A DNA stretch of 32,046 nucleotides, from positions 1 to 32,046 of the forward strand of contig JADHWH010000020.1 of the NCBI GenBank assembly GCA_016783555.1, given 5' to 3'. Below, in pieces: positions 1,390 through 31,482 of the stretch (the first letter of the stretch is position 1; every line of letters starts with the position of its first letter). Origin of the DNA: Candidatus Omnitrophota bacterium. Lineage in GTDB: Bacteria > Omnitrophota > Gorgyraeia > JABMRJ01. The position numbers and the translations under genes were made by a program. The notes under the pieces are model-generated. The model did not search any database, was not told the DNA's origin, and saw nothing but the letters and a program-made list of their open reading frames with translations.

Positions 1390-1606
1390 CCTTCCTCTTT
1401 CTGAACAACAGGGATTTTAAAAAAGTTATCACCCTGCCCCAAAATAACTTAAGGGCGAATAACCCTCCGAGCAAAACCCCTATAAGAAGCTGCAGAAGAT
1501 AGCTGCCGCTTCCAGGGTCAAGATAGGCGTAACTCTCCTTTGTAAAAATAAGACCGAGGATAACGATTATGATAAATATTAAAAGAGAGTCTTTAAAATA
1601 TCTCAT
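1370..1606 (-). CDS. Small membrane protein with 'YLDPGSGSYLLQLLIG' motif, function unknown
   Basis: 78 aa: N-terminal hydrophobic segment, then 'AYLDPGSGSYLLQLLIGVLLGGLFALKLFW', then a basic tail. Overlaps both neighbours (4 nt ATGA with the upstream gene, 20 nt with the downstream gene). Confidence 0.75.
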   Translation of the reverse strand: MRYFKDSLLIFIIIVILGLIFTKESYAYLDPGSGSYLLQLLIGVLLGGLFALKLFWGRVITFLKSLLFRKRKDERPKD

Positions 1607-2598
1607 ATCAGCACCTTCCGCTTCTCTTTATCCAGCCATTTGACTAAGTTCTTAAGCCCCTCTCTCAGATCGGTCCGGGCCTTAAAACCTATCATCCTTT
1701 CGGCTTTTTTGGTCTCTGCCAAACGCCTCTCTACCTCAACCCTTCTGCGGTTATCGGTTATAGGTATAAATTTAGGTTTTAAATCCGAGCCCATGACCTC
1801 CAGCAATAACCAGCACAATTCCTCCAGGGATGTCTCTCTGCCGCTTGCTACATTGAATACCTCATCTTTTATATCCGACTTAAGCGCCGAGATGCTGGCC
1901 CTGGCTACATCTTCTACATAAACGAAATCCATTGTCTGTTTCCCGTCGCCGTATATCAGGGGCCGCTCTCCTTCCCTTATCATGTCATACCATTTAATCA
2001 ATACCTCGGTATATTTACCGTATATGTCCATGCGCGGGCCGTAGATATTAAAATAACGCATAGCGACGAATTTCAGCCCGTACATATGATAGAAGGAACG
2101 AAACATAAGCTCGTTTGAGGCCTTGGCTGCCCCGTAAAGAGTGAAATTATTATACGGGTGATGTGCCTCATTTGTGGGAAAGGTATCGGCCTGCCCATAC
2201 AAAGAAGCCGAGGAAGCCAGGAGAACCTTTTCTACGCCGTGGTTGACGCATGACTCCGCTACATTGAAGGTCCCCTCAAACATGACCTCAAGCGCCTGCC
2301 TGGGTTCGGCCGCGCAATGTGTTATACGAAGCGCCGCCATATGAAAACAATAGTCGATGCCCTTGAAGGTATCCTCCAATAAGCCGCGGTCTCTTATATC
2401 CCCTTTTATAAAATTTATCTTGCCGGAGGAGAGAAGATGCTTAATATTATTCTCAGAGCCCCGGATGAGATTGTCTAAAAGAAGGATCTCTTTAACGCCT
2501 TCCTTTATGAGCTGATCAGCGATAGATGACCCTACAAAACCCGCGCCGCCGGTGATAAGCGCCATCTTATCTTTTAGAGAGTTCATATTCTCTGACAC
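1603..2598 (-). CDS. NAD-dependent sugar epimerase/dehydratase (extended SDR)
   Basis: 'ALITGGAGFVGSSIADQLI' Rossmann motif, 'YGAAKASNELM' YxxxK motif. Start is uncertain (32-nt overlap with the upstream gene; ATG at M12 is an alternative). Confidence 0.9.
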   Translation of the reverse strand: MSENMNSLKDKMALITGGAGFVGSSIADQLIKEGVKEILLLDNLIRGSENNIKHLLSSGKINFIKGDIRDRGLLEDTFKGIDYCFHMAALRITHCAAEPRQALEVMFEGTFNVAESCVNHGVEKVLLASSASLYGQADTFPTNEAHHPYNNFTLYGAAKASNELMFRSFYHMYGLKFVAMRYFNIYGPRMDIYGKYTEVLIKWYDMIREGERPLIYGDGKQTMDFVYVEDVARASISALKSDIKDEVFNVASGRETSLEELCWLLLEVMGSDLKPKFIPITDNRRRVEVERRLAETKKAERMIGFKARTDLREGLKNLVKWLDKEKRKVLI

Positions 2599-3076
2599 CG
2601 TTCTTTCTTAAACACCTGGCCGGATTACCCGCCCAGGTCTGGTTCTTCGGTATATCCTTTGTAACAACACTCCCGGCCCCTACGACCGAATTATCACCGA
2701 TCTTTATGCCTCCGAGTATCGTCGCGTTTGAGCCGATAGATACGTTGTTACCTATATTAATCTTAACGAGCCTTCCGGCCCAATCATCCTCTGATTCCGG
2801 TCCCCCATCTTTGTTTACCGCGCGCGGGTAGTTATCATTTATAAAGACGACCCCGTGGCCGATAAAAGAGTTTTTCCCTATGGTCACCCCTTCGCATATG
2901 AATGTATGGGAAGAAATTTTACAGTTCTTTCCGACTTTCGCGTTCTTCTGTATCTCTACGAATGCGCCTATCCTGGTCTTCTCCCCTACCTCGCACCCGT
3001 ATAGATTGATAAATTTTGATAATTTTACGTTCTTCCCTAATTTTACGTCTTGTGACACGTAGACATCTCTTCTCAT
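2567..3076 (-). CDS. Left-handed beta-helix (hexapeptide) acyltransferase, WbpD/WlbB-like
   Basis: Hexapeptide repeats ('IGNNVSIGSNATILGGIKIGDNSVVGAGSVVTKDIPKNQTWAGNPAR'). Confidence 0.88.
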   Translation of the reverse strand: MRRDVYVSQDVKLGKNVKLSKFINLYGCEVGEKTRIGAFVEIQKNAKVGKNCKISSHTFICEGVTIGKNSFIGHGVVFINDNYPRAVNKDGGPESEDDWAGRLVKINIGNNVSIGSNATILGGIKIGDNSVVGAGSVVTKDIPKNQTWAGNPARCLRKNGVREYELSKR

Positions 3077-4074
3077 AACTTAACCGTCTTTCCATTGTTT
3101 CTCAATGATTCATTTGCCGCCTCAAGCAGTTTTACAATCCTCAAACCGGCGCGGCCGTCGTTGATGGGGTTTTCGTTGTTTAAGATACAATCGACAAAAT
3201 ATTCCGTCTCGATCTTAAGCGCCTCCGTATGGTCCGTTATGGGCGCCCACATATCGCCGGACCGGTAATCCACCAACAGATTATAAACCCCTTCTCTGCC
3301 CTTGACCTCTACCCCTTTGTCATATACCTTTATCTTCTCATCCGCCTCAAGGTCGTCCCAAACGAGCATCTTCTTTCCTCCGCCGATACATGTCCTTCTT
3401 ATCTTGACGGGCGATAGCCAGTTGACATTGAAGTGGGCTATCATCCTGTTAAAATATGCCGTTATATACGCCACGTTCTCAAGCCCCGTGTTTAAATGAT
3501 CCATGCCGCTTGCGACTATGGCGCCGGGCTTCTCTTCTATCACATAGTCCATAACTGACAGATCGTGCGGGGCAAGATCCCAGATAACGTTTACATCATG
3601 CTGAAAGAGGCCGAGGTTCACCCTTGTGGAATCATAATAATAGATATCTCCCAGGAGCCTCTCTTTTAGGAGCTCTTTTATCTTTCTTACCGCCCCTGTA
3701 AATAAGAATGTATGGTCCACCATTATCTTAAGGCCTTTTTTGTCCGCCAGGGTTATTAAATCTTCCGCTTCTCTGCTGGTATATGTAAAGGGCTTCTCCA
3801 CAAATATATTCTTTCCGTTATCAAGGGCCTCTTTGGCTATAGGGTAATGAGTTGAGACAGGCGTGACTATACAGACCGCGTCAATATCCCGCGATGATAT
3901 AATATCGCGGTAATCCTTGGTGATATTAAGGCCCGGGCGTTGTCTCTTAGCCCGGTTTAAAGCGTGCGGGTCGATATCACATACCGAAACAACCTCTGCC
4001 TTATCAGTTAGCGCGAAGTTGCGGACGATATTAGGCCCCCAATAACCGTATCCGATTACACCTATCTTTATCAT
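3073..4074 (-). CDS. Gfo/Idh/MocA-family oxidoreductase (WbpB/WlbA-like)
   Basis: 'IGVIGYGYWGPNIVRNF' Rossmann start; 'VCIVTPVSTHYPIAKEALDNGKNIFVEKPFT' with EKP motif. SD 'AAGGTGG' upstream of ATG. Confidence 0.9.
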   Translation of the reverse strand: MIKIGVIGYGYWGPNIVRNFALTDKAEVVSVCDIDPHALNRAKRQRPGLNITKDYRDIISSRDIDAVCIVTPVSTHYPIAKEALDNGKNIFVEKPFTYTSREAEDLITLADKKGLKIMVDHTFLFTGAVRKIKELLKERLLGDIYYYDSTRVNLGLFQHDVNVIWDLAPHDLSVMDYVIEEKPGAIVASGMDHLNTGLENVAYITAYFNRMIAHFNVNWLSPVKIRRTCIGGGKKMLVWDDLEADEKIKVYDKGVEVKGREGVYNLLVDYRSGDMWAPITDHTEALKIETEYFVDCILNNENPINDGRAGLRIVKLLEAANESLRNNGKTVKL

Positions 4075-9172: not shown

Positions 9173-11596
9173 CTAATCCTTTATCTTAAGAACTCTTCTG
9201 CAGATAAATCTTGGGGCCCTCGTCCATCTTATATCGCTTTTAAAATCAAAGTGACTTCTGATGGGAAGATTCATTAATCTCTCAAACTCCTCTTCTGTAA
9301 TATCGAATTTTTTAAGGAGGAGACCCTTATCTCTTTTTAACTCTTCTTCCGGATAAGTAGGCTTTTCTATCTCTTTCAGGGCCTCTTCTCTTGTAATCTG
9401 TTCCGAACAAATCAAGGTTGACAAATGAGACCTTCTCTTATCTATATTAAATTTTCTGGGCAGTATGTGCATCTGATAAAAACGGGTGAATAGGGATTCG
9501 CAATGTTTGCCGCCGTAATCCTTCCAACCGAGCTCTTCTTTAATAAATTTCTTAGCATCATTCCTAATATAATCGATATAATGCAAAGGATATATGAACC
9601 TGATATTTTTGATAAACTGATAATATAACTTTTTCCACCTGCCAAGGGTAGGAAAACCCTCCGCCCTGATTGTCCCGAATTGGTTATAGATATCCTTTAA
9701 ATTTGTTAAGTCATACTTGTTATGATACCAGCTCTTAGGCATTATATACTCGCTCATGACATTGTAGCCGCTTAATACATATCCGATCCCCCTCTTACGG
9801 GCGGTCTCATACAAGACAGCCATTAATAGGTGGTCCGTAGGGAATTCTATATCAACGACGGATGCCTTAAAATATGCCAATTGCAAATCCTTAAATATCT
9901 TCCAATTGACCTTGTAGGTATATAAATCGACGCCTAGGGCTTTCGTTATTTTTTCAATATTTTCTGATGCTGTGTCTGAATTCCATTCATTGTCTAAATG
10001 CATAACCAAAGGCCTAAGGCCCCATTTTAGTGTAAGATATAAGAGATACGTACTGTCTACTCCGCCGCTGATACCTGTAATGCAATCATGGTTTTTATTT
10101 CTACCGTCTTTCTTAATCTTATCGATGATTCTTTTAAACTCCTTTTCTTTCTCTTTAGGGATATACCTCTCAACCGCTTTACAATACTCTTTACAATGGT
10201 TGCAGATACCCTTTTCGTCAAATTCTATATCAGGGTCTGTTGTGTCCATAATACATGTTGTACAAATTTGATATCTCTTTTTCACTATCTCTCTCCCTTT
10301 TACATTCTCAAGGCGGTATCTCAAACGCCTTAATGATTGAACCCAGGAAGACGGCAAAAAGAAGAAGACCAAACGAAGAGAATAACCCTCTAGGGCAACT
10401 ATCATCCAGATTAACCATTCACGCAGTCGATTGTAGAAATATAAAAAAGCATCTACGAGGGGCCTTCGCTTAACTTTGACAGACTTAAGAGAGCCCGCCA
10501 GGACATCGCGAACAAAATCCTTATAGGTAAACCTCTGACTTTCGACAATATCTCTGTAGGCCCTTTCGACAATCTCCCCCCTTAGAGAATCGTTCTTTAT
10601 AATTTTAAGGACTTCTTCGATATTGCTGAAATCTTTTTTAAGAGGGATATAGTGGAGGTTCGGCTTTAAGATGCCGTTATAATCTCCCTCAACTAAAATC
10701 TGGCAGGTCCTGGTGGCGCAGGCCTCCAAATGCCTGGGGGAGATAGTGGAAATGTTCAAGCCCCCGTCCAATCCTTTAAAACAGGCCTCTTCTACCTCTT
10801 CAAAGCCGGCATTGGGATTATCGGCCAAATAATTTTCGGCCTTATCCCTTATGCTTCCATCCTTATCGAGAATGCTGCTGCCCCCCTCTACCCCTATGAA
10901 ATATTTACAATTTAACAGAAATCTATACCAATCAAAACCCAAAAATAGATCTCTTTTTTCCGTAGATATATCCATCCTAAATCTTCTCTTCGGGGCGTAC
11001 TCTTTAAAGAGGTCGGCGATCTTGGTCTTAAGATACCCGTGACGGCCGAGCCAATATGGCGCCTTATTTGCGCGATATCCGATATCGACAGGGCGGTCTC
11101 CTTTTCTTTTAAAAAGGCGCTGAATCTTTCTTAATGTCTTCTCTTCCAAGTAACCCGTCAGGACTCTGGCGAATTTTACTTTAGAGCGGTCTACATCGGG
11201 ATATATCTTTTTCCATTCGCCCTCTTCGGCTACGGAAAATACGGCGCTTATTCCAAACCCGTTAATGAACTGCGAGATAACGTCCGTCCGGATAAATTCG
11301 TCTTGAGTCAGCGCGATCTTAACGGCGTCTATCTTCTTTAAAACCGCGGTCTTTCGAACCAATACCGAGTACGGCAATCTGCTCCACCTAATACTGGTAA
11401 GAAAGATAGTGGGAAATATGACTAGATCAAAATCTATGCCTAATATATATCGCGGCACCCCAAAGGCGGTATTTAAATAAAAGACGCGATGCGTAGAATG
11501 CCTCGCAAATGAATATAGATAATCCTTGAGTGTCTCTCGCATCGGAAAGCTATATCGATGGTGATAGACTACTAGAATATTTGCCTTTTCCGCCAT
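9173..11596 (-). CDS. Fusion: N-terminal glycosyltransferase-like domain plus C-terminal N-acetyl sugar amidotransferase (WbpG/PseA-like)
   Basis: 807 aa. C-terminal part (about 9173-10287) has 'CTTCIMDTTDPDIEFDEKGICNHC' and PP-loop 'ISGGVDSTYLLYL'. N-terminal part (about 10288-11596) is a clear paralogue of 15496..16809. Confidence 0.85.
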   Translation of the reverse strand: MAEKANILVVYHHRYSFPMRETLKDYLYSFARHSTHRVFYLNTAFGVPRYILGIDFDLVIFPTIFLTSIRWSRLPYSVLVRKTAVLKKIDAVKIALTQDEFIRTDVISQFINGFGISAVFSVAEEGEWKKIYPDVDRSKVKFARVLTGYLEEKTLRKIQRLFKRKGDRPVDIGYRANKAPYWLGRHGYLKTKIADLFKEYAPKRRFRMDISTEKRDLFLGFDWYRFLLNCKYFIGVEGGSSILDKDGSIRDKAENYLADNPNAGFEEVEEACFKGLDGGLNISTISPRHLEACATRTCQILVEGDYNGILKPNLHYIPLKKDFSNIEEVLKIIKNDSLRGEIVERAYRDIVESQRFTYKDFVRDVLAGSLKSVKVKRRPLVDAFLYFYNRLREWLIWMIVALEGYSLRLVFFFLPSSWVQSLRRLRYRLENVKGREIVKKRYQICTTCIMDTTDPDIEFDEKGICNHCKEYCKAVERYIPKEKEKEFKRIIDKIKKDGRNKNHDCITGISGGVDSTYLLYLTLKWGLRPLVMHLDNEWNSDTASENIEKITKALGVDLYTYKVNWKIFKDLQLAYFKASVVDIEFPTDHLLMAVLYETARKRGIGYVLSGYNVMSEYIMPKSWYHNKYDLTNLKDIYNQFGTIRAEGFPTLGRWKKLYYQFIKNIRFIYPLHYIDYIRNDAKKFIKEELGWKDYGGKHCESLFTRFYQMHILPRKFNIDKRRSHLSTLICSEQITREEALKEIEKPTYPEEELKRDKGLLLKKFDITEEEFERLMNLPIRSHFDFKSDIRWTRAPRFICRRVLKIKD

Positions 11597-11611: not shown

Positions 11612-12568
11612 CTATCCCTTAAGGTGTGTATACGTCTCTTTAATCTCGTGTTTACCATACCATCGAACGGCATGCCCTATACCCTCCCCTAAAGGGGTCT
11701 TTGTCTTCCAATTAAAATCATCGTTTGCCCTCGTGGGATCCAACAAGATGGTATAGACATCGTCTTTGTTGCGCGGTCTTACTTCTACAGGTTCTGACAG
11801 TTTGATGCCTAATGCGCCCACTACGGCGTCAAAGATATCCTTAGTAGAATAATCGCTGCCGGAAGATATATGGTAATACCCTTTATCTCCCATTCCGTCT
11901 ATGGCCTTCATTACGACATCCATCAGGTCCTGCACAAAAATATAGTCTCTTCTGGTATCCATTACGAAACATCTCTTCCTTGAGGTTAATCTACTATAAA
12001 ATGTAGGCACGGCCCCGCTAAGATTTCTTGGTCCGTATATATTTGCCAATCTAAAAGAGATAAAATCGATACCGCTTAGCGCGATATACTGCTCGGCTGC
12101 GGTCTTGCTGATAGCATAACTGCTCTCCGGATAGAGGGGATGGTCCAATGTAATAGGCTGTTTCAGCGGTCTTAATCCATAACACAGGGATGTCTGAAAA
12201 TATATTAAACGCCTTACACCTGTTTGCTTGGACGCATTAAGAACATTTATTGTGCCAAGGACGTTTGTCCGCGCATCCGTCTTCCAATCTTCCGGATCTT
12301 TATAAGATGCTGCGGCATGAATAACAATCTCAGGCTGAAAATCCAAAAAGGCTTTTTCTACAAATGCCCTCTCTGCGATATCGCCTTCGGAAATAGTAAG
12401 CAAGTTATGTAACTTGAGGTTATCCGGTCTGCCTGTGGCATAATTATCCAATACCAATACTCTGTCTGAACGAGAGATGAGCAGCTCGGCAATATGTGAT
12501 CCAATAAACCCTGCTCCCCCCGTAATTAAAACTTTCATCTTATCCTCCTCTAACTCTTTGTCAGCCAA
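11612..12568 (-). CDS. NAD-dependent sugar epimerase/dehydratase
   Basis: 'VLITGGAGFIGSHIAELLISR', 'YAISKTAAEQY' (YxxxK). Confidence 0.9.
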   Translation of the reverse strand: MADKELEEDKMKVLITGGAGFIGSHIAELLISRSDRVLVLDNYATGRPDNLKLHNLLTISEGDIAERAFVEKAFLDFQPEIVIHAAASYKDPEDWKTDARTNVLGTINVLNASKQTGVRRLIYFQTSLCYGLRPLKQPITLDHPLYPESSYAISKTAAEQYIALSGIDFISFRLANIYGPRNLSGAVPTFYSRLTSRKRCFVMDTRRDYIFVQDLMDVVMKAIDGMGDKGYYHISSGSDYSTKDIFDAVVGALGIKLSEPVEVRPRNKDDVYTILLDPTRANDDFNWKTKTPLGEGIGHAVRWYGKHEIKETYTHLKG

Positions 12569-13587
12569 TATACGCCGCCGACACCGGCATACTTACCCTG
12601 ATGGGTTAAAAACCCCTGGTCGTCCTGTTTCAGGCCTTTAAGAAAATTTTTGTGTTCTATACTAAGCCTGTCGTCTTCAAGGGCTATTCGGTTGTATCTT
12701 TTAAACAATTTGAGCACATAATTCCAGAAATAGCCTCCGGCATAATCAACGTCTTTAAAATTTACATTTCCGCATATCTCGATAAATTCTTCCGGTCTAT
12801 AGCATCGCGATATCGGACAGTCTCTTCCATCAGTGTTTTTCGAAAATGCCTCCCGCACCGACTGACCCCTAAATTCCCCGTCCAGGATCATCCTAACGTA
12901 CGCGACTACTAGATGTAGATATATCGAATTATAATTGTACACCATTATACAGGCCCTTGAGCCGGGTTTTAATACTCTGTAAAATTCCCTCAAGATAAGC
13001 GCCGGATCAGAAACATGGTGAAGAACACCTGAACAATTTATGTAATCGACGCTACTATCGTCGAGCGGGATCTTAGAAAAGGCGTCCGAAATATTGATCA
13101 ACTCTACCTCTTTAGGGTCTATTCTGTGGAGTGCCAGCCTGTATCCAGCAAGATGAAGGCTCTTCTTAGATATATCGATCCCGATTAATCTTTTCGCATG
13201 GCTGTAAAGCGCAAATCCTATCAGATCGTTACCGGGTCCGCATCCGTAATCCAATAATATCTTACCGCTATGGTCTCTATAAAGCTGCATAAGCTCTTTT
13301 ATGGGGGGATGTTCGGAAGACCTCCGTTTAAGATAAGTTATAGATTGTGCGCGAGAAACAAAAGGCCTTGAACCTACAGTATGCCGGGCCCAATAAGAGT
13401 CTACGGGAGTATGGTTCTCTTTATGATAAAGATGGACTTGCGGCAGCATTCCACGCCTACCAAAATACCAATTCCTTAAACAGCGCCAAGAACCGAGTAA
13501 TATGATATAGAGATGGTTATAAATTTGATTCTTTAATGTAGAAACAAATTTTACTAAGCCTCTATCTATAAACATTTTCCAATTCAT
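12550..13587 (-). CDS. Class I SAM-dependent methyltransferase
   Basis: 'KILLDYGCGPGNDLIGFALYSHAKRLIGIDIS', 'INCSGVLHHVSDPALILREFYRVLKPGS'. Confidence 0.88.
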   Translation of the reverse strand: MNWKMFIDRGLVKFVSTLKNQIYNHLYIILLGSWRCLRNWYFGRRGMLPQVHLYHKENHTPVDSYWARHTVGSRPFVSRAQSITYLKRRSSEHPPIKELMQLYRDHSGKILLDYGCGPGNDLIGFALYSHAKRLIGIDISKKSLHLAGYRLALHRIDPKEVELINISDAFSKIPLDDSSVDYINCSGVLHHVSDPALILREFYRVLKPGSRACIMVYNYNSIYLHLVVAYVRMILDGEFRGQSVREAFSKNTDGRDCPISRCYRPEEFIEICGNVNFKDVDYAGGYFWNYVLKLFKRYNRIALEDDRLSIEHKNFLKGLKQDDQGFLTHQGKYAGVGGVYWLTKS

Positions 13588-15508
13588 CTCTTTTTGTTTT
13601 GTAAATATTTTTTATCTCATACGCTTTGTCGTGAAACTCCTGCTGCCATAACTCAAGAGAGAGCAAGGCCCATACCCTCCGGCTAAATTTTCCTTCTTTT
13701 GCCATAAGATTACGCGTGTCAAGCTTGGGATGCAGGTATTCACGATTGCGCGCTTTTTGGCTTGAGAAGATATCAAGGACGAAGTCCTTTAAGTCAGACT
13801 TTAACCAGAGTGACAAAGGAACGGGAAAACCTTTCTTGTCCTTGCGCTCCCTTATTACCTTTGGAATATGCTTTTTAAATGTGTTTTTTAGAAAATGTTT
13901 TAAGTCTCCGTTTTTGAATTTTATGTTTGATGGAATAGACGCCGCAAGTTCTACTATAGGGTGGTCTAATAAAGGGGTTCTCGACTCCAACCCATGGGCC
14001 ATGCTCATTCTATCCTCAACCTGCAACAAGGCCGGTAAGAGAGTCTTAAAGTCAAAATGTGTCATATTGTCAAAATACGATTCTGGTCCAACATTCTTAC
14101 CCCAAAAAATCTTTTTGAAATTATCAAAAGAAGAATACCGGCCTAATAAGTCCCAGTTAATCTTATCCTCCATGCCACTGGCTCTATTAATCAACTTAAA
14201 ATAGCGCTCGTCCCTATTACCGAATAATCCATCGCTCCAGAACTCCTTCATTAACGGCGCATAATCCCTTAATGTCATAAGGTTTGGAATAATAGATTCG
14301 TATGTAACTATAAAGTTCCCGCTATGCATAGTGCCCTCTATGGCCCCCTTTATGCATAGCTCGAAATAAGCCAGGAGGTAACGGGTGTAACCGCCGAATA
14401 TCTCGTCTCCCCCCTGTCCCCCCAGTGCCACTTTAGTATATTGGCTTGCCAATTTTGATACCATATATTGAGGGAAAGAACCGGGTCCTGCAACCGGGTA
14501 ATCTAGATGATAGATAACCTTTCTGATATTATCTATGAAATCTTTAGGGGTAATCACTAATTCATGTAAGTCTAATTTATAATCCTCTGCCATCTTTTTT
14601 GCATATACGGATTCGTCGTATTCCGCCCCTTCATCGAATTTTCCTGTGAATACATGAAAGGCGTCTTTATTCTGTATCGCCCTGGCGAGCGAAACGAGAA
14701 TGCTGGAATCTAATCCTCCGCTTAGATACGCCCCGACAGGGACGTCGCTGCGTAGATGCAGCTTCACTGAATCCGTTAATAATGCGTCTATCTTTTCTTT
14801 AAAATAACCTTCGGAGTGCTTCCAATCTAACTTGTAATAGACATCCCAGTATCGGCTTATAGAAGTGTGACCGTTCTTTATTACCATTGTGTGTGCCGGG
14901 GGCAATTGTTCTATGTCTTTAAAAAGAGTCTTATTTTCAAAGATAAATTGGAATGTAAGATAATCTTTCAACCCCCTGTAATCGGTAGCGATTTCGTCAA
15001 CAAAAGGGAGCAGTGCCTTAGCTTCTGATGCAAAAAAGAACCCTTCTTTTGTTTCTGCAAAATAGAAAGGTTTTATTCCGAAGCGGTCACGGGCGCAAAA
15101 AAGAGTATCTTTCTTTTTATCCCATATAGCAAATGCAAACATTCCCCTAAAATGGTCTACGCAGTTCCGGCCCCATTTTTCATAGGCGCGCAGTATTGTC
15201 TCAGTATCAGAGGTAGTCTTAAATTTTTCTATACCCAGTGTTTGTCTTAATTCAATATAATTATATATTTCACCGTTATATACAATCACCAGACCCGATG
15301 ATTCGGCCACCATTGGTTGGTGCCCCTTAAATAAATCTATAATACTAAGTCTCACATGGCCCAATCCTATCTTCGCGTCTTTATCTATCCATAAACCTCT
15401 ATCGTCAGGACCTCTATGGGCCTGCATATGGTTCATAATTTTGATAACGCTATTTATCCTTTCAGCGCATACTGATTCAGATGGTAAAAAGCCCGCTATT
15501 CCGCACAT
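13562..15508 (-). CDS. asnB: Asparagine synthase (glutamine-hydrolysing)-like protein
   Basis: 'MCGIAGF' with Cys2 nucleophile, 'VYNGEIYNY', 'SDTETILRAYEKWG', PP-loop 'YLSGGLDSS', 'GGQGGDEIFGGY'. Confidence 0.92.
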   Translation of the reverse strand: MCGIAGFLPSESVCAERINSVIKIMNHMQAHRGPDDRGLWIDKDAKIGLGHVRLSIIDLFKGHQPMVAESSGLVIVYNGEIYNYIELRQTLGIEKFKTTSDTETILRAYEKWGRNCVDHFRGMFAFAIWDKKKDTLFCARDRFGIKPFYFAETKEGFFFASEAKALLPFVDEIATDYRGLKDYLTFQFIFENKTLFKDIEQLPPAHTMVIKNGHTSISRYWDVYYKLDWKHSEGYFKEKIDALLTDSVKLHLRSDVPVGAYLSGGLDSSILVSLARAIQNKDAFHVFTGKFDEGAEYDESVYAKKMAEDYKLDLHELVITPKDFIDNIRKVIYHLDYPVAGPGSFPQYMVSKLASQYTKVALGGQGGDEIFGGYTRYLLAYFELCIKGAIEGTMHSGNFIVTYESIIPNLMTLRDYAPLMKEFWSDGLFGNRDERYFKLINRASGMEDKINWDLLGRYSSFDNFKKIFWGKNVGPESYFDNMTHFDFKTLLPALLQVEDRMSMAHGLESRTPLLDHPIVELAASIPSNIKFKNGDLKHFLKNTFKKHIPKVIRERKDKKGFPVPLSLWLKSDLKDFVLDIFSSQKARNREYLHPKLDTRNLMAKEGKFSRRVWALLSLELWQQEFHDKAYEIKNIYKTKRDELENVYR

Positions 15509-16809
15509 CTTTGCTCCTGTAATTGGTTATGTGAACGCCTGCTGGGAAATTGCATGCATAGAACTTTACTATACAGCTTTCTTAAAATATGCTTTTTATA
15601 TAAAAAAGACAACTCTTTTGTAATAAGAGCGTAGTTCTTATCTGCGTCAAAATCTATAGGCTTAGGCTTGAATCCGCCTTTTAAGAGTTCCATATCGAAA
15701 ACTTCGATGAAACGTTTGTACGTATAGCGTTCGGATAGTATCAAGTCCTGATAGGCGTTCTTTACAATCTGCCTTCTGAAATTTCCATCCTTGAATAGAC
15801 CGATAACCTCATCGAAGTTAGAAAAGTCTTTTCTTAACGGTATATAGTGGACCATCGGCCGCATAACTCCTGAATAACCTCCCTCAAATAATATTTGGCA
15901 TGTTTGAAGCGCTGCTGCTTCAAAATGTCTCTGGCTAAAAGTGCGGTTAGGGATATTATTCTCCCACTTATGTAAAAATTTCTCCCACATCTGGTTAAAT
16001 GTAATCTTAGGATCTATCTTTACCGCCTTTAGATATTCATCATATATAGTACCGTCTATATCAAAGATAGAGGCCCCTGACTCTGCTCCAAGCGTAGCGC
16101 GACAATCAGCTAGAAATTTATACCAATCCTTACCGTAAATCCTACTCTCCTCATCTGTCTTAATATCATTTTTTAATCGTAAACCCTTGGCGCGTTCTCG
16201 AAAACCTGCGGCAATATCATACTTTTCCCGCGCGCCTTTTCCCATATAAAAAGCCAATTCTCGCCCTCTGTATCCAATGTCAATTTTGCGTTTACTATCC
16301 GGGCTTACAATGCTTTTTGCGGATCTGATTAATTCCTCGCTTACATACCCGGAGAAAGGAATATGTATTATTTTAGAGACAGACGTATATTTCCTGTAGA
16401 CATCCTTAAAATACTCCGGTTTGATCAAAGTATAAATAGAATCAATCTTATAATGATTGATAAAACCGAAGCGCTGCTTACAATATTGGAATTCATCCTG
16501 AAAGATGGCAATCTTATAGCTTCTACGGCATCTATTTAAGTATTCCAAAAAATCACTATTTAGCATGAATGGCCATGTACCAAAGAGTGAGTAATGTAAA
16601 ACTATGGTCTGAAATTTTGCAGCCTTAAGCGCCTTAGGAAACCCGAACGCGGTATTGACCTTTAAGACTTTAAATTTAGAATAACGCTCAAACGCATTTA
16701 CATATTCCATAATAGTAGAGGCGTTCAGATTTAGGGGATAATGATACAATAACAATATCCCATTTAATAGACTATTTTGATTGTTCTTTTTTACGCTTTT
16801 TACATTCAT
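15496..16809 (-). CDS. Glycosyltransferase-like protein, paralogue of the N-terminal half of 9173..11596
   Basis: 437 aa. Shared blocks with the 807-aa protein: 'DIGYRGRELAFYMGK'/'DIGYRANKAPYWLGR', 'QRHFEAAALQTCQILFEGGYSGVMRPMVHYIPLRKDFSN'/'PRHLEACATRTCQILVEGDYNGILKPNLHYIPLKKDFSN'. Confidence 0.7.
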   Translation of the reverse strand: MNVKSVKKNNQNSLLNGILLLYHYPLNLNASTIMEYVNAFERYSKFKVLKVNTAFGFPKALKAAKFQTIVLHYSLFGTWPFMLNSDFLEYLNRCRRSYKIAIFQDEFQYCKQRFGFINHYKIDSIYTLIKPEYFKDVYRKYTSVSKIIHIPFSGYVSEELIRSAKSIVSPDSKRKIDIGYRGRELAFYMGKGAREKYDIAAGFRERAKGLRLKNDIKTDEESRIYGKDWYKFLADCRATLGAESGASIFDIDGTIYDEYLKAVKIDPKITFNQMWEKFLHKWENNIPNRTFSQRHFEAAALQTCQILFEGGYSGVMRPMVHYIPLRKDFSNFDEVIGLFKDGNFRRQIVKNAYQDLILSERYTYKRFIEVFDMELLKGGFKPKPIDFDADKNYALITKELSFLYKKHILRKLYSKVLCMQFPSRRSHNQLQEQRCAE

Positions 16810-18798: not shown

Positions 18799-19896
18799 TC
18801 ATATGGAATTGTATACAGTTTCGAGATTTTTCGCAACGTTGACATAGTGGTGGTGCCTCAAAGCATACTCTCTAGATTTCTCGCCTATCTCTTTTAACCT
18901 CTCAATGTTGTCTAACAAATTTTTCAGCACTTCAAAGATATTATTGATATTGGCATTTATCAGAGGGTGTTGACGGGTAATAATCCGTTCCACCTTGGGA
19001 TCAATATAGGTCACAACGGGCTTGGCCATCGATAGACATTCGATTGCTGTTGAACCGTACCATCCGGCCTTAAGCTGGTCGACTACTATGTCTGCCTGAG
19101 CTTGAAAATATTTTAACTCCTTATTAGGAATCTTGCCAAAAAAGATAAGCTCTACCCTGTAACCCTCCTCTCTCAATCTCTCAACAGCCGCTTTGATATG
19201 TCTCGTCCCTTTAATATCGCCTCTCTCCTGGCTATTTGCGAATGAGTGGTATATCCTTATTCTATCTGTTGCTGGAAGCCGAAACGGCCCGGGTATATCA
19301 TCATATTTAAGCGGCTTCCATTCATCACAATCGATCGCGTTATCCATCCATTTTATATCTTCGCAATACGCAGCTAAGTCACCGGCGGATAATTGGCGAT
19401 CGCCATACTCAAAGGCCTTCTTTAACATCTCTTTTTTACTTGGCGCCATGCAGGTTTTTTTAATATCATCCGCACATTCATAACAGGCAAAATAACTATA
19501 TTCTCCATTAGCCTCCGGTATCCTCACATCTGAGCATCCCCACCAACTAATAACTATTTTTTTACCTAATCTCTTTAGAAATTTAAGTTCGCTGAGACTC
19601 TCGCACACAGGATACGTAGGGCTCAGGAGGCCGCATCCGCTGTGAAGATGGAAAATATCATAATTTTTTGCTGCATAAAGGAAAAATTCTATCTCTCTAG
19701 TCTTTCTTGTGCGGCGTTCTTCAAACCTAGAGTCTAGATCAAAATCACAATCACGGCCATATGACCCGAATTTTCTAAAATTATAAACCATGTAATCTGC
19801 TTTGTAGCCCAACTCTCTCAAACCCTTTACATATAAGAATGGCTGATAGAGAGCCACTATTGGACAATGCAAAATTCTAGGTTTTTCTACAGACAT
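18799..19896 (-). CDS. Glycosyltransferase, GT-B fold
   Basis: 'RIYHSFANSQERGDIKGTRHIKAAVERL', 'ADIVVDQLKAGWYGSTAIECLSMAKPVVTYI'. Confidence 0.8.
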   Translation of the reverse strand: MSVEKPRILHCPIVALYQPFLYVKGLRELGYKADYMVYNFRKFGSYGRDCDFDLDSRFEERRTRKTREIEFFLYAAKNYDIFHLHSGCGLLSPTYPVCESLSELKFLKRLGKKIVISWWGCSDVRIPEANGEYSYFACYECADDIKKTCMAPSKKEMLKKAFEYGDRQLSAGDLAAYCEDIKWMDNAIDCDEWKPLKYDDIPGPFRLPATDRIRIYHSFANSQERGDIKGTRHIKAAVERLREEGYRVELIFFGKIPNKELKYFQAQADIVVDQLKAGWYGSTAIECLSMAKPVVTYIDPKVERIITRQHPLINANINNIFEVLKNLLDNIERLKEIGEKSREYALRHHHYVNVAKNLETVYNSI

Positions 19897-20678
19897 GGTC
19901 CGAAATAACCCTTTAATTTTCTAAAAAAGTTTATACCTGCGTAAAACAAAATAATATCCAGCGCAAATAAATATAGCAAACCGGCTATATTGGGTATTCT
20001 ATTATATATCACGCAAGATCTATAACCGTCGATTATTTGATAGAAAGGATTAAAAAAAGTTATCTTCTGTACAATACTGGGCATCATCTGGCGGCTATAA
20101 AAGATAGGTGTAAAGAAAAGACATAGTAAAAGTAGGCTATTTATAAGCTGCGAAACATCTCTTATAAATACCGTTACCGCAGATGTAAAGAAAGAGACTC
20201 CGAGAGTAAAGGCGACCTGCAGCAAAACTACAGGCATAAGCCAAAGAATATGAATGGTATATCTGCCGCCGCTGAAGAAGATAAGGACAAAGAGAAAAAC
20301 AGAGGAAACAAAAAGAGGGACGATTCCCATCAATGAAGAAGCTATAGGTAAAACTTCTGTTTTAAATACTGTATTTTTTACAATTTCAGAATGCATAACG
20401 ACGCCATTACACCCCGTATTCATCCCTTCAGAAATACCAAGCCATGGAGCAAGTCCGCTTATAAGCCAAACCGCGTAAGGCAATGATTCCTCACTCACCG
20501 GGACCCTGGCTTTGAATATAAAAGCAAATACAAATGTATAGATACTCAACATCAATAAGGGGTTAATAAACGCCCAGTAGACCCCGAGAATAGAACCGAT
20601 ATATCTATCCTTCAGGTTCATTTTAAAAAAATTGTAGACCATCCGCAAATCTTCTTTTGCAAAACCTAAAAGCGGCAT
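19887..20678 (-). CDS. ABC-2 type polysaccharide export permease (Wzm-like)
   Basis: 263 aa, 'DLRMVYNFFKMNLKDRYIGSILGVYWAFINPLLMLSIYTFVF', six hydrophobic segments, adjacent to a Wzt-like ATPase. Confidence 0.9.
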   Translation of the reverse strand: MPLLGFAKEDLRMVYNFFKMNLKDRYIGSILGVYWAFINPLLMLSIYTFVFAFIFKARVPVSEESLPYAVWLISGLAPWLGISEGMNTGCNGVVMHSEIVKNTVFKTEVLPIASSLMGIVPLFVSSVFLFVLIFFSGGRYTIHILWLMPVVLLQVAFTLGVSFFTSAVTVFIRDVSQLINSLLLLCLFFTPIFYSRQMMPSIVQKITFFNPFYQIIDGYRSCVIYNRIPNIAGLLYLFALDIILFYAGINFFRKLKGYFGPCL

Positions 20679-21904
20679 ATCTCCTCCTCTTTGGCTTCAT
20701 CGATATCGCAATTTACCGGCTGAAAAAAAGCAGGATTATCAAAAGAGCATTCGGGGTTATCGACTTTCAGCATGCTATATCTTGTTGCCATTGCCTCTTT
20801 TGTCTCTTTATTAAAAAGTTCGGCTTTGACTTCATAAATATTCTTTCCAAACAAAACCTTATCCATATAAATTTCAAATTCTGCTTTATCTGTGATATTT
20901 CCCAATGTAAATCCATCTTTGCTCGCCAGATTCTCCATCAACAAAATATCATCTGGTCTTATAAATGAAATTCTCAGATCGGTGTTCTTGACTCTATTTT
21001 TAGAACTAACGCTTATTCGAATTCTCATCTCCTCTCCTACGTTGAATACAAATCTCCTTTTACCCATACTGTCCAAAAAATCCAACTTTGTAATATTTAA
21101 ATCCTGACTTGATGACTGCTCTTTTATGAGCTTATCGAATCTCTTAAGAAATCCCTTCTCTTCTTCATCTTTGATAGACTCCAGGTATCGAGAGGTCACC
21201 TCTTCGGGATTGCCGTCCATAACTACCTTGCCTCTATCCAGCCATATGCATCTATTACATATCTGTTTTATATCACCCATATTGTGAGATGCCATTATCA
21301 CGATCTTTCCCTTATCGCACATCTTTCTAATCGCTGACGCCGATTTTAACATAAACTGCACGTCTCCAACAGAGAGCAACTCGTCTATTATTAAGACCTC
21401 TGGTTCAAGATAGGTAAGCATAGAAAAAGCCAGGCGCATCCTCATACCTGTAGAATAGGTCCTCACCGGCCTATCTATAAAATCTCCGATATCTGCAAAG
21501 GTTATTATATTATCTATTACCCTATTGATTATCGATTTGCTCTTACCGTTGATCTCACCGTCAAGATAAATATTTTCTCTTCCTGTTAAGTCCCCTTTTA
21601 AACCCACTCCCAAGGTCATCGTACAGGTAACTTTTCCATCTACGTTTACGCGGCCTAAAGTAGGTTGGGCCAAGCCGGCAATAGTCCGCAAAAGCGTAGT
21701 CTTGCCTGCGCCGTTCCTGCCGATTATACCGACGCGTTCCCCCTCACGAATATTAAAAGAAATGTTATCAGCGGCTATTACGTTCCCCTTGCCGTGCATT
21801 ATCTTCTCTCTTCTCCCGAAGAACGCCGTGCCTATAATAAATATGGCTTGGTCTAATAGTGAACTCTTGAAGACATTGTATAATTTTTTCACTGAAACGT
21901 GCAT
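20666..21904 (-). CDS. ABC transporter ATP-binding protein (Wzt-like) with C-terminal extension
   Basis: Walker A 'GRNGAGKTTLL', signature 'YSTGMRMRLAFS', Walker B 'VLIIDELLSVGD', H-loop 'MASHN'; about 170-aa C-terminal Wzt-type domain. Confidence 0.92.
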   Translation of the reverse strand: MHVSVKKLYNVFKSSLLDQAIFIIGTAFFGRREKIMHGKGNVIAADNISFNIREGERVGIIGRNGAGKTTLLRTIAGLAQPTLGRVNVDGKVTCTMTLGVGLKGDLTGRENIYLDGEINGKSKSIINRVIDNIITFADIGDFIDRPVRTYSTGMRMRLAFSMLTYLEPEVLIIDELLSVGDVQFMLKSASAIRKMCDKGKIVIMASHNMGDIKQICNRCIWLDRGKVVMDGNPEEVTSRYLESIKDEEEKGFLKRFDKLIKEQSSSQDLNITKLDFLDSMGKRRFVFNVGEEMRIRISVSSKNRVKNTDLRISFIRPDDILLMENLASKDGFTLGNITDKAEFEIYMDKVLFGKNIYEVKAELFNKETKEAMATRYSMLKVDNPECSFDNPAFFQPVNCDIDEAKEEEICRF

Positions 21905-23322
21905 AATAACCTCTTGATTCTATTAAGCATGCCGGATGTAAATCTTTTATAACTACGGTTCTTTATACGCGTTGTATATTTAATGCTCTTCTGCACCCTG
22001 GTCCAGATTCCGTTTTCCATTTCTTGATAAATTAATTCATTTGAACAGGGTTGCCGGCTGCAGTAAAAACATTGGAATCTATCGGTAACTTTTCCGCTTA
22101 ACATTTCATATCTCAGTCTACTAAAATTCTCGCCATTCCAAATATCTGATATGCTGGAATCATTAACATTTCCTAAAATTTCGTTCTCTCTTCGGGTATC
22201 GGTGACTCCGCATACATATGTATCGCCGTTAGAAGTAATCAAGAAATTGTGCCAAGGTAAGATACAAAAATTCTTATTCAAAAAACCGCCAAACATATTT
22301 AAAGACGAAAACTTATTATCTTTAAATACTACACAATTTTGGAGAGAAACGGTATCTACTAAATGGGCGTATTTATCAAAGGGTGTCTGCCATTGGTGCC
22401 GATTCTCTTCCATCCTCACTGCCTTTATGCCAATTTTATTCTTTTTTGTTTTAAATATTTTTCTTGCAGCTTCAACAGAAGCCGTGATTTTGTCAAAGGA
22501 TGCGCCCCTTCTAATTAACTCGTATGTCTCTTTATCAAAGCCGTCTATGCTAAAAAATAAGGCTGAAAGACCGGAATCCCTGAATTTCCTTAATAACTCC
22601 TCCGTCACAAGCTGCCCATTTGTTAGAAGCGATACATATATCTTATGCTTGGTAAATACCTCTATTATCTTTGTAATCTCAGGATTTAGTAACGCCTCCC
22701 CCCTGTAAGAGAGTTCCACCATTGGTTTCACCGGCCACTCATTTATCTCTTCTGCTATTTTTTTCGTCAAATCTACGGACAACATTAAAGTACCTTTGTC
22801 TTTCTTCGATAGAAAATAGGTTTGGTAATTACACATTCTGCATTTGAGGTTGCACAAGGGTGTAGGTTCCAAATTAATAGTACGTGGATATTTATATTTA
22901 TCTAAATTACTGCCTACGTATTTAACCAGCAATTCTTCTTCAAAATCCAAAACTACTCTTTTATTAAGATGTTTCATATTTAATGTGGCGTCAGGTAAAA
23001 AATCAACTCTTTTACCGATATCCATCTTCTTTAAATACCCGGATGGTATATATTCCCACGCTACCTCAGGCCGCAATATACAACTTAAATCTGCATGTAT
23101 ATAGCTATCAGGGTAGTCGGATATCTTATTATAAAAGTAATTTAGAAACCCATAAAACGAATCGTCAGCGTGTGTAGCGCAAATTATAGAATTTCCTGCA
23201 TTGCTTTTTAAAATATCTTCGAATCTACATAGAAAATCAAACCTGACATTTCTTTCTGAAAGAAATCTTCTTGTCTTTCTTCCCGGGAACTTATTTTTAA
23301 AGAAAATTATGGTCCGTGCCAT
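21889..23322 (-). CDS. Radical SAM/SPASM domain protein with long N-terminal extension
   Basis: 'TPLCNLKCRMCNYQ' (CxxxCxxC); C-terminal 'NFCILPWHNFLITSNGDTYVCG...CFYCSRQPC' SPASM-type cysteines. Confidence 0.9.
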   Translation of the reverse strand: MARTIIFFKNKFPGRKTRRFLSERNVRFDFLCRFEDILKSNAGNSIICATHADDSFYGFLNYFYNKISDYPDSYIHADLSCILRPEVAWEYIPSGYLKKMDIGKRVDFLPDATLNMKHLNKRVVLDFEEELLVKYVGSNLDKYKYPRTINLEPTPLCNLKCRMCNYQTYFLSKKDKGTLMLSVDLTKKIAEEINEWPVKPMVELSYRGEALLNPEITKIIEVFTKHKIYVSLLTNGQLVTEELLRKFRDSGLSALFFSIDGFDKETYELIRRGASFDKITASVEAARKIFKTKKNKIGIKAVRMEENRHQWQTPFDKYAHLVDTVSLQNCVVFKDNKFSSLNMFGGFLNKNFCILPWHNFLITSNGDTYVCGVTDTRRENEILGNVNDSSISDIWNGENFSRLRYEMLSGKVTDRFQCFYCSRQPCSNELIYQEMENGIWTRVQKSIKYTTRIKNRSYKRFTSGMLNRIKRLLCTFQ

Positions 23323-24773
23323 CGGAAATTAGTATAAATGTTATGGTGTTTTTCAGTATAGATAGAAATGTTTCCATCCACTTCGTAATAACCACAGCCT
23401 GTATGCCACATATCGCATCCGGCGCATACCGGATGCATCGGAAGCGAGCCGTCATCCAAAAGCATGCTATTCCTAAACTTTTTTAGATTGCCGCCATTCC
23501 ATATTTCAGGTAATCTTGATAACTTTAGATCACCCAGCATCATCTCAGAATTATAGTCTCTGCAACAAGCAGAAACTAGACCATCGGTGGATATGACTTG
23601 CATTTGATACGGTTGAATACATGCGAATCTCTCATCGGGCAGATGCAATTCATAAGATTTATACTGCTTTTCTGTCGCAGGGTCGGACCAAAGCATAGTT
23701 ACTATACCAGCAACCTTTGGCATCCATCTCTTACGAAACATACCAAATTCTTCTTCATTTAAGTTAGGCATTAAAAGATACAATAAATTTAAAGGCTTAT
23801 TATAACTAGACATCAATCTTGCGCATTTTTCTATATTTCTGATCGTTTTATAAAAATCTCCGTTTGGTACTATTTTTTTATAAGTCTCTTCTTTAAACGC
23901 ATCTATGCTTATGGAAAGCGAAGAGAGGCCGGAATCCAGCATAGATTTAAGAATATCTTTTGTTAACAGAGTACCGTTTGATGTATGCGAAAAACGCATT
24001 CTTTTTTTACGCAAATATTTGACGGCATCAAAAAACCCTGGATGGAGAATGCTCTCCCCGGAGATAGATAGATATACCATAGTACGGGGATAAGCGTTTT
24101 CTACGATCTTTTTAAACATATTGATATCCATATCTAAAGGCTTATTCCTCCAGCCCATTCTCCCGCTCGCATCAGGTTTGTGATATGGGCATTTGACACA
24201 GCTTAAATTACATCTATGAGTTAAATCGCAGCTGTAACTTGGTGAATATGGCGGACAACTACTTTTAAGAAAATAATGCTTCCTAAATTTATTTGTAATC
24301 CAATATCTGTGCATATTTCCTGTAAATTCAGGCGCGCCATTAAATAAAGCATTCCGCAGATATTTTTTTTCCTGACGAATGACGTTTTTGAAAAAACGAT
24401 ATGTAATTTTTTCAATGAAAAATTTTTGAATTATCTCTTTTCCGTCAGAAAAATAATAACTTCTATCCTGCGATTTATTGATAAAATCTATTATGAGCTC
24501 CTTTAATATCTGATCCTTCTCATGTATGTAAATAATCTCTGTCTCTTTCCCGAAGCGGTTAAAGATATATTTTATTAATTCAAAACGACTGATCAGGTGG
24601 CGTATGAGCAAAAATTTTTCTTTTCCATGTACAAATTTCCAATATATGCCGTTCCTGCTTATTCCTATAGCGATATTAGCGAAGGGTTTTAGAGAATCGA
24701 GGGTCTCTCCAAAATTATCTCGGCCATATTTATATAAAATTACTAGTCTCTTCATTGGATTAGCCTCTTCCAA
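23307..24773 (-). CDS. Radical SAM/SPASM domain protein with long N-terminal extension
   Basis: 'THRCNLSCVKCPYH' (CxxxCxxC); C-terminal 'CIQPYQMQVISTDGLVSACCRDYNSEMMLGDL...HPVCAGCDMWHTGC'. Confidence 0.9.
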   Translation of the reverse strand: MEEANPMKRLVILYKYGRDNFGETLDSLKPFANIAIGISRNGIYWKFVHGKEKFLLIRHLISRFELIKYIFNRFGKETEIIYIHEKDQILKELIIDFINKSQDRSYYFSDGKEIIQKFFIEKITYRFFKNVIRQEKKYLRNALFNGAPEFTGNMHRYWITNKFRKHYFLKSSCPPYSPSYSCDLTHRCNLSCVKCPYHKPDASGRMGWRNKPLDMDINMFKKIVENAYPRTMVYLSISGESILHPGFFDAVKYLRKKRMRFSHTSNGTLLTKDILKSMLDSGLSSLSISIDAFKEETYKKIVPNGDFYKTIRNIEKCARLMSSYNKPLNLLYLLMPNLNEEEFGMFRKRWMPKVAGIVTMLWSDPATEKQYKSYELHLPDERFACIQPYQMQVISTDGLVSACCRDYNSEMMLGDLKLSRLPEIWNGGNLKKFRNSMLLDDGSLPMHPVCAGCDMWHTGCGYYEVDGNISIYTEKHHNIYTNFRWHGP

Positions 24774-25990
24774 ACCAGATCTTTTCTTAAAATAGGGTAT
24801 TTTGTATTAGTTGTTCCCTCATCTCTTTCTCTTTTGTCTTCCACCCTAAATCTTGCGTTCGAATCGTCTAAATAAGTCTTTGTATCATAAATCAATCTGA
24901 TCCCATCTGTCTTTAATGGCGTAATATAAAGCGCGAACTTGTAATCGCCGGGGTAGAGATATAATGGAGAGAACCTTAATCTGATCTTCTTTGGTTGGTA
25001 TAATTTTTCTCCGGGAGGAAATACCGCTTCTGATTTTGAGGCAAAGCACCATTCTTTACTGCCTGTCCTTAGGACATTAAAATAGACTCTATAATCCCTG
25101 ACTGGAGAAAAGAGTTTTAAATCAACATCAACGGTCAGGCTATTCTCCTCATATTTGCAGTTACATTCAATGATTTCAATGAACTTTTTATAAATCGCCG
25201 GGTCAAAACTGTAAAGATTCAACAGGTCTTCTTCGGAATTGCTATTGGAATAAAGCTTCCCGATGGTCTGCTGGATATAATCATCCAATACCTTCTCGCT
25301 ATCGCCGAAGTTAACCACCCTCCCATCCTTAAGCCAAAGGAGTTTGTTGCATAACTTTTTTAAAAAAGCCCAGTTATGGGACACGAATATAAAAGTTCCT
25401 CCTTTTTCAGCAAGTTTCAAAAATCTTCTATAACATTTCCCTATAAAATACTCGTCTCCTACATATATAAATTCATCAATAAGATACACATCTGCAGGAA
25501 CACTCGTAATAACAGAGAATAGCAGTCTCATTAACATTCCGGATGAATAGCTATTGATATGCCTATGCCTCCAATCTTCTAATTCTGAAAATTCAAATAT
25601 ATCATCCATTACTCTTAAGGCATCATCTTCAGACACACCGTAAATAGCAAGAAATCTTCTCGCTGTTTCCTCTCCGGTTAAAAAGAGATTTTTAAGGGGG
25701 AATTCTGCGCCGAGAACTGAAAATTTACTTCCATCTACCACCACTTTCCCCGTATGTTCTAGGATCCCGCTTAATACCCTTAAAAGCGTGGTTTTGCCTG
25801 AACCATTTAATCCTATAATTCCCAGCTTATCTCCCTTTTTTAATGAAAAACAGATATCTGACAGCGCATGAAATGTAGGAAGAGAATTTTTGTCTATAAA
25901 TACTCTGAAAATATCTGAGCTTTTATCTAATAGATAATAGTATTTGTTTACTTTGTCTGCGAAAACATTTATATTGTCTTTTACAGCCAT
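24752..25990 (-). CDS. ABC transporter ATP-binding protein (Wzt-like), second copy
   Basis: Walker A 'GLNGSGKTTLL', signature 'YSSGMLMRLLFS', Walker B 'VYLIDEFIYVGD', H-loop 'FVSHN'; C-terminal extension. Confidence 0.9.
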   Translation of the reverse strand: MAVKDNINVFADKVNKYYYLLDKSSDIFRVFIDKNSLPTFHALSDICFSLKKGDKLGIIGLNGSGKTTLLRVLSGILEHTGKVVVDGSKFSVLGAEFPLKNLFLTGEETARRFLAIYGVSEDDALRVMDDIFEFSELEDWRHRHINSYSSGMLMRLLFSVITSVPADVYLIDEFIYVGDEYFIGKCYRRFLKLAEKGGTFIFVSHNWAFLKKLCNKLLWLKDGRVVNFGDSEKVLDDYIQQTIGKLYSNSNSEEDLLNLYSFDPAIYKKFIEIIECNCKYEENSLTVDVDLKLFSPVRDYRVYFNVLRTGSKEWCFASKSEAVFPPGEKLYQPKKIRLRFSPLYLYPGDYKFALYITPLKTDGIRLIYDTKTYLDDSNARFRVEDKRERDEGTTNTKYPILRKDLVWKRLIQ

Positions 25991-26970
25991 CTTATATCAC
26001 CGGTTACTACATGCCTTTTTAAATTAAACCATACATCAGGAAACAACGACCAGACAATACAGTCTTTGCAAAGCTCTACGCTGTCATATCTATTATCACA
26101 ATGCAATTCTCTCAACCGCCTCAACTTTTCACCTTTCCATATAGACTCAAAGCCTTGTTTCAATATATTGCCGAGGGGATCTCTGTCGCCTGTTACATGT
26201 ACAAAACATTTGGAGACATCGCCGTTAGGTTCGATCTTTGTCGCATACCAAAGCCAGATACATGGATAGCGTTTTGAAGGTATCTTCTGTCCTTCTGCGG
26301 GTGTAACTTCATTTCTATCCACCATGCCGGCCCAATTGCCATAATTACGCACCGTAGCATCGTCAGTAATGCCGGACCAACGTCTTATAAAATCATCAAA
26401 TTCGCGGGATAGCTCTTTTATTCCTATAATATGCGTGGTTATCTTTAAATGCTTTGCGGACCGCTTATTGCGGATCCTGACCAACATCTCTAGATTTCTG
26501 CATATCTGGCCGTAATTATCGGCGCCTGTAAGCCACTTATAGGATTTTTCTGTGCCGGCATTCAAAGAGAAGGACAAATGGTCGATCCCGCTATCTACGA
26601 TCTCTTCACATCTTTTGCGGTCTAAAAACGCGCCGTTTGTAGCTACTATGATACAGGCCTTAGGGCATAATCTTCTTGCCGTGGATAAATATTCAAACGA
26701 TTTCGGATGCATGAATGTCTCGCCATAAGCGCTTATTTCAAGGTTGCAGGAACGATCGCCCAGTTCCATACAGGCCCTTTCAAAAATCTTGTCTGTAATG
26801 TATCTCTCTTTCTTGGGGGGAGTTCCATACATAGGACACATCCTGCATTTCCTATTGCATTTATATTCGCCCAAGGAGATGCTATAGGAATAAGGAAAAT
26901 CGGGCCTTAAGTAACGTTTGCGTTCTATTATTTTTTTTATCGCGCTTAAATTATGTATATTTATTCCCAA
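25981..26970 (-). CDS. Radical SAM/SPASM domain protein
   Basis: 'LGEYKCNRKCRMCPMYG' (CxxxCxxC), SPASM 'CIWLWYATKIEPNGDVSKCFV...CKDCIVW'. Track start is 26988; a TTG at 26970 has AGGAG 6 nt upstream and is a better start. Confidence 0.88.
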   Translation of the reverse strand: MGINIHNLSAIKKIIERKRYLRPDFPYSYSISLGEYKCNRKCRMCPMYGTPPKKERYITDKIFERACMELGDRSCNLEISAYGETFMHPKSFEYLSTARRLCPKACIIVATNGAFLDRKRCEEIVDSGIDHLSFSLNAGTEKSYKWLTGADNYGQICRNLEMLVRIRNKRSAKHLKITTHIIGIKELSREFDDFIRRWSGITDDATVRNYGNWAGMVDRNEVTPAEGQKIPSKRYPCIWLWYATKIEPNGDVSKCFVHVTGDRDPLGNILKQGFESIWKGEKLRRLRELHCDNRYDSVELCKDCIVWSLFPDVWFNLKRHVVTGDIRWL

Positions 26971-31438: not shown

Positions 31439-31482
31439 GCACCGTTAGACCTACTCGTCATCTTTCTGAGGTCTAACGGTGC
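31439..31482. repeat. Perfect 14-bp inverted repeat (RNA hairpin) between a radical SAM stop codon and the asnB start
   Basis: gcaccgttagacct (31439-31452), 16-nt loop, aggtctaacggtgc (31469-31482), exact reverse complements. No U-tract follows on the minus strand. Confidence 0.85.

Follow-up and report, generated by a model that had tools for sequence, protein, structure and literature searches.

A candidate glycosyltransferase-sugar amidotransferase fusion in a surface glycan cluster of Candidatus Omnitrophota

Acetamidino groups make the cell surface more positively charged, and to our knowledge the step at which they are added, on the nucleotide sugar or on the lipid-linked glycan, is not settled for most systems. 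An 807-aa open reading frame (ORF) of a Candidatus Omnitrophota bacterium raises the question of whether amidination and glycosyl transfer can be brought together on a single chain. An earlier note on this DNA, made from its letters, described the ORF as a glycosyltransferase-like domain fused to a sugar amidotransferase and proposed that the fusion links amidination and transfer, with both acting on the same sugar. We followed up this proposal in the window (the whole stretch of DNA analysed, 1-32046, which is also the whole contig). Our main reading, to which we give a probability of about 0.5, is that of a genuine, probably young fusion in an ABC-exporter-type surface glycan cluster, in which a GT-B-like transferase is joined to a WbuX/WbpG-family amidotransferase and would place amidination beside glycosyl transfer. 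The features of the fusion and its paralogue are as follows.

9173-11596, minus strand: 807-aa fusion ORF, GT-B-like domain plus N-acetyl sugar amidotransferase (ORF call, domain searches).
10291-11596, minus strand: GT-B-like N-domain, aa 1-436, made up of a core (1-371) and a hydrophobic tail (shares similarity with 15496-16809 and with each half of a tandem protein in G028, a genome of another class).
10337-10429, minus strand: hydrophobic/amphipathic stretch in the N-domain tail, aa 390-420, which may touch the membrane (aligned to the tail in which the G028 protein naturally ends).
9176-10285, minus strand: amidotransferase domain, aa 438-807, TIGR03573 WbuX (profile match).
10193-10264, minus strand: zinc-type tetracysteine C445xxC448...C465xxC468 (alignment; motif in PMC10607449).
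10052-10069, minus strand: PP-loop SGGVDS, aa 510-515 (alignment).
9986-9988, minus strand: Glu537 replacing an invariant Gly, DNGWNS to DNEWNS (Gly in 103 of 103 relatives).
15496-16809, minus strand: stand-alone N-domain paralogue, 437 aa (sequence similarity).

The ORF begins with ATG and runs on the minus strand as a single open frame with 0 internal stops; the plus-strand frame across the same interval has 35. The earlier note had the coordinates right, and the strand is minus. The C-terminal part is certainly a WbuX/WbpG-family N-acetyl sugar amidotransferase: aa 443-775 matched TIGR03573 (WbuX) over model positions 2-343 of 344 with 282.6 bits (E = 5e-84), against a curated cut-off of 203.2 bits. 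Two features are named for this family, a tetracysteine (CxxC...[GN]xCxxC) and a PP-loop (SGGxDS) (PMC10607449). We observed that Cys445/448/465/468 and SGGVDS are intact in the fusion and conserved among its relatives in the alignment, bearing out the assignment that had been made from the Cys cluster and the SGGVDS motif. A profile search of the genome found no second WbuX-family gene above the cut-off.

The N-terminal part is probably a GT-B glycosyltransferase, to judge from its relatives. It is 33% identical to ORF 15496-16809 over 370 aa, confirming the relationship previously noticed for the first ~436 aa. Searched alone, the domain matched 0 Pfam families at E values up to 10 and stayed under every Pfam cut-off. 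Its tandem homologue in G028 reached PF13524 (Glyco_trans_1_2) with a score of 25.3 against a cut-off of 25, and a profile of the four family members matched POGLUT1 (GT90) at E = 6.7e-6 over 38 positions only, with weaker matches to POGLUT2 and Rumi. The POGLUT1, POGLUT2 and Rumi matches always fell on LKPxxHYIPLKxDFSN, a donor-side motif. The label "glycosyltransferase-like" given in the earlier note can thus be sharpened to a probable GT-B enzyme by way of the family profile and the homologue, not by way of any Pfam cut-off reached by the domain itself. Two AlphaFold2 runs with 4-row alignments (one on the window copy, one on a homologue core) gave pLDDT values of 49-50, and we did not rely on fold searches for that reason; in a PDB search with the second model (pLDDT ~50), two glycosyltransferases came first at E = 1.3e-3, with flavodoxins, receiver domains and other unrelated Rossmann-like folds close behind.

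The four N-domain copies share 51 identical alignment columns at a mutual identity of only ~30-36%, which argues that the family is under strong constraint, as for a working enzyme; the alignment suggests that nothing points to a dead domain. Such conservation also argues against a mere anchor. We considered that the amidotransferase might act after transfer on a lipid-linked glycan, with the N-domain serving only for membrane positioning and the transferred sugar differing from the amidinated one. The hydrophobic tail at aa 390-420 would suit this arrangement, as would the presence of other transferases and two N-domain copies in the cluster, but in view of the conservation we hold it to be very improbable and favor an N-domain that is itself a transferase.

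Among 384 genomes of the phylum, strong N-domain matches were confined to the source genome (2 copies) and G028, whose 2 copies lie in tandem in one 902-aa protein (L116:8477-11185) without an amidotransferase. Searching the classes of both these genomes with profiles yielded no further solid homologues. None was found in plasmids, phages or viral contigs, nor in 50 WbuX-bearing genomes of other phyla, the latter in a search that had no positive control. A search for the same architecture found the exact GT-B-like/WbuX fusion in no second genome among the 384 of the phylum and 20 relatives. Long frames at weak matches in G240, G139, G338 and G019 were rejected as fusions and are ordinary stand-alone genes. 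The fusion protein aligns to the second G028 N-domain up to aa 433, soon after which the G028 protein ends naturally. We therefore assign the hydrophobic "linker" at aa 372-433 to the transferase, so that the fusion joins two natural gene ends.

The junction, which had been placed at about 10288, matches aa 437/438 and carries the following relic.

10283-10296, minus strand: GGAG at 10293-10296, a 7-nt spacer, GTG at 10283-10285 (Val438) and an out-of-frame TAG at 10285-10287 overlapping the GTG (sequence; start codons of relatives).

The TAG and GTG overlap as TAGTG, and one base fewer in AAAAGGGAGAGAG would turn the ORF into two normal overlapping genes. By ungapped extrapolation, the aligned ATG of the relatives falls at residue 437 in 15 and at residue 438 in 15, and within 434-442 in 70 of 106; in stand-alone relatives the ATG starts concentrate at 436-438. 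The N-part has a G+C content of 0.44 and the C-part one of 0.37, which fits two origins. Given the retained start site and the single base that separates the fusion from a gene pair, the join could be a recent event, could still allow a free amidotransferase to be made, or could reflect an assembly indel. The ORF might, then, be two overlapping genes (TAG/GTG) joined by a one-base indel in the assembly or the strain, or translation might also begin at the internal GTG and yield the C-half as a separate protein. The match in position between the GTG and the starts of stand-alone relatives, the GGAG 7 nt ahead of it and the overlapping TAG all speak for this possibility, as do the ease with which one base restores the pair, the G+C shift and the end of the G028 homologue soon after aa 433. 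On the other hand, errors are not typical of a four-base A run or a three-base G run, the assembled sequence has an open frame, and other glycosyltransferase-amidotransferase fusions exist without such relics. We regard the two-gene alternative as unlikely, albeit a real contender, and continue to prefer a genuine fusion.

Those other fusions bear directly on the earlier proposal. Sugar amidotransferases were said to be usually stand-alone, and about 95% of the relatives that we examined are; nevertheless, the homologues are not all unfused, since four others among 100 aligned rows (L046, L049, L085 and L039) each carry an in-frame N-terminal domain. The partner is a GT4 domain in L046, L049 and L085. 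The L039 protein (L039:5389-7170), from a Bacteroidota metagenome-assembled genome (MAG), joins a hexapeptide acetyltransferase to a WbuX-type amidotransferase. We detected no similarity between the GT4 domains (PF00534) and the fusion N-domain, and in a maximum-likelihood tree the 5 fused rows required 5 separate changes. The four other cases are metagenome assemblies, any one of which could be an artefact; this is less likely for all five. Judged from the tree, fusion to a sugar-handling enzyme has evidently arisen repeatedly, and the repeated, independent joining of glycosyltransferases to amidotransferases is the best evidence for a functional coupling of amidination and transfer. The ORF studied here puts known domains together in a new way. 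No account of such fusions turned up in the collection of papers searched, although one may exist outside it.

Long frames upstream of WbuX in the G+C-rich L098 and L108 looked, on visual inspection, like frames open by chance, and we did not accept them as fusions. In L155 (G007:C94) and L156 (G264:C10), a WbuX-like amidotransferase is preceded in one fused chain by a class II glutamine amidotransferase (GATase_6 by Pfam in L155, a similar sequence in L156), possibly a built-in ammonia supply that replaces HisH/HisF.

A HisH/HisF-type partner is common, not obligatory, in the WbuX family: among the 50 relatives whose flanks reach 5 kb or more on each side, 34 have a HisF-like gene nearby and 16 have none. 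The closest same-class relatives directly follow a HisF-like gene. The source genome (93% complete) contains no partner of the WbuY/WbuZ type (HisH2/HisF2). Its one HisF and one HisH both lie in an ordinary his operon, and this HisF passes the HisF cut-off with 388 bits and stays under those of WbuZ and HisF2. The fusion enzyme would have to draw on free ammonia, the his-operon pair or a gene in the missing 7%. We also considered the AsnB proteins of the window as a source and set them aside: each carries a synthetase domain of its own, and we saw no link between AsnB and the fusion enzyme.

Retention of every invariant position, a yardstick of our own rather than a published defining feature of the family, breaks down at Gly537, which is Glu here. 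In addition, residue 567 is Ile where 88 relatives have Glu, and the end branch of the fusion in the maximum-likelihood tree has a length of 0.89, about twice the median (0.45). Taken with a genome that lacks HisH2/HisF2, set against the HisF-like neighbor of most relatives, these observations could mean that the fused amidotransferase is altered or losing function and, having no ammonia partner, is inefficient at making acetamidino sugars, leaving the protein mainly a glycosyltransferase. However, just 3 of the 59 conserved columns deviate in the fusion (rank 38 of 104), the PP-loop and the four cysteines are intact, the frame is open over 370 aa, and the 16 relatives likewise have no nearby HisF. 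The domain does not appear to be badly eroded overall. Some impairment is possible; a protein reduced mainly to glycosyl transfer seems to us distinctly unlikely, and we prefer to read the fusion as carrying two working halves.

The surrounding genes suggest which sugar might be involved.

11612-12568, minus strand: SDR epimerase/dehydratase, directly upstream of the fusion, 61% to its G028 counterpart (sequence comparison).
13562-15508, minus strand: AsnB-type glutamine-dependent amidotransferase, 58% to its G028 counterpart (sequence comparison).
19887-21904, minus strand: ABC exporter of polysaccharide-export type, permease 19887-20678 (50% to G028) and ATPase 20666-21904 (43%) (sequence comparison).
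1603-4074, minus strand: SDR, hexapeptide acetyltransferase and Gfo/Idh dehydrogenase (profile matches below equivalog cut-offs).

The epimerase, AsnB, permease and ATPase make the G028 cluster syntenic with that of the fusion. The genes at 1603-4074 may be part of a diacetamido-sugar type pathway and a possible source of an N-acetyl sugar, and the amidinated sugar is perhaps a 2,3-diacetamido sugar. Because the contig extends no further than the window, the glycan cluster is truncated on either side, and absent pathway genes, for example an aminotransferase, may lie elsewhere. We also observed two different polysaccharide-type ABC ATPases (24752-25990 and 20666-21904, minus strand) with only one permease seen in the cluster. 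Four radical SAM/SPASM-type proteins lie in the cluster on the minus strand, the first (21889-23322) recognized by NCBIfam and the other three (23307-24773, 25981-26988 and 31473-32015) by sequence appearance.

We reasoned that the C-part would activate the acetamido oxygen of a sugar with ATP and that ammonia would then be added to the activated sugar to give the acetamidino group, while the fused N-part would carry out glycosyl transfer beside this reaction. The target of amidination could be the sugar in transfer or one just joined to the growing lipid-linked glycan, and the cluster's ABC transporter would then export the finished glycan. The coupling proposed in the earlier note is backed by the independent fusions; its "same sugar" is only one of several possibilities. 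A bolder view, which we think improbable, is that glycosyltransferase-fused amidotransferases form a recurrent, self-contained transfer-and-amidination class, whose amidotransferase would act on a sugar within or beside the transferase site and would dispense with a dedicated HisH/HisF ammonia supply. The repeated fusion points to amidination near the moment of transfer, and the fused proteins offer single chains on which the timing of amidination can be tested.

Compared with known systems, the fusion has in common with WbuX of E. coli O145, WbpG of P. aeruginosa O5 and LpNASAT (8WEX) a full-length domain, the tetracysteine, SGGVDS and a glycan-cluster setting. Unlike these enzymes, it sits behind a GT-B-like domain, its genome has no dedicated HisH/HisF-type partners, and Gly537 is replaced by Glu. 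The N-domain family shares LKPxxHYIPLKxDFSN, near the GT-B donor side, with GT90 proteins (POGLUT1, Rumi) and PF13524, a likeness limited to one short stretch. The tandem protein of G028 belongs to the same family, its two halves being 35% and 35% identical to the fusion N-domain, and lies in the same cluster order with epimerase, AsnB and ABC exporter; it differs in having two N-domains in one chain and no amidotransferase, and the WbuX-family gene is elsewhere, on a separate contig in a HisH-HisF-WbuX operon. The fusions in Bacteroidota MAGs (L046, L049, L085) likewise place a glycosyltransferase N-terminal to WbuX, with the join at the same point, but they have a GT4 partner, separate tree positions and no start-site relic at the junction. 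Finally, the diacetamido-type genes of the fusion cluster are similar in kind to those of a Sphingomonas cluster with WbuX, HisF2 and HisH (PMC11340318).
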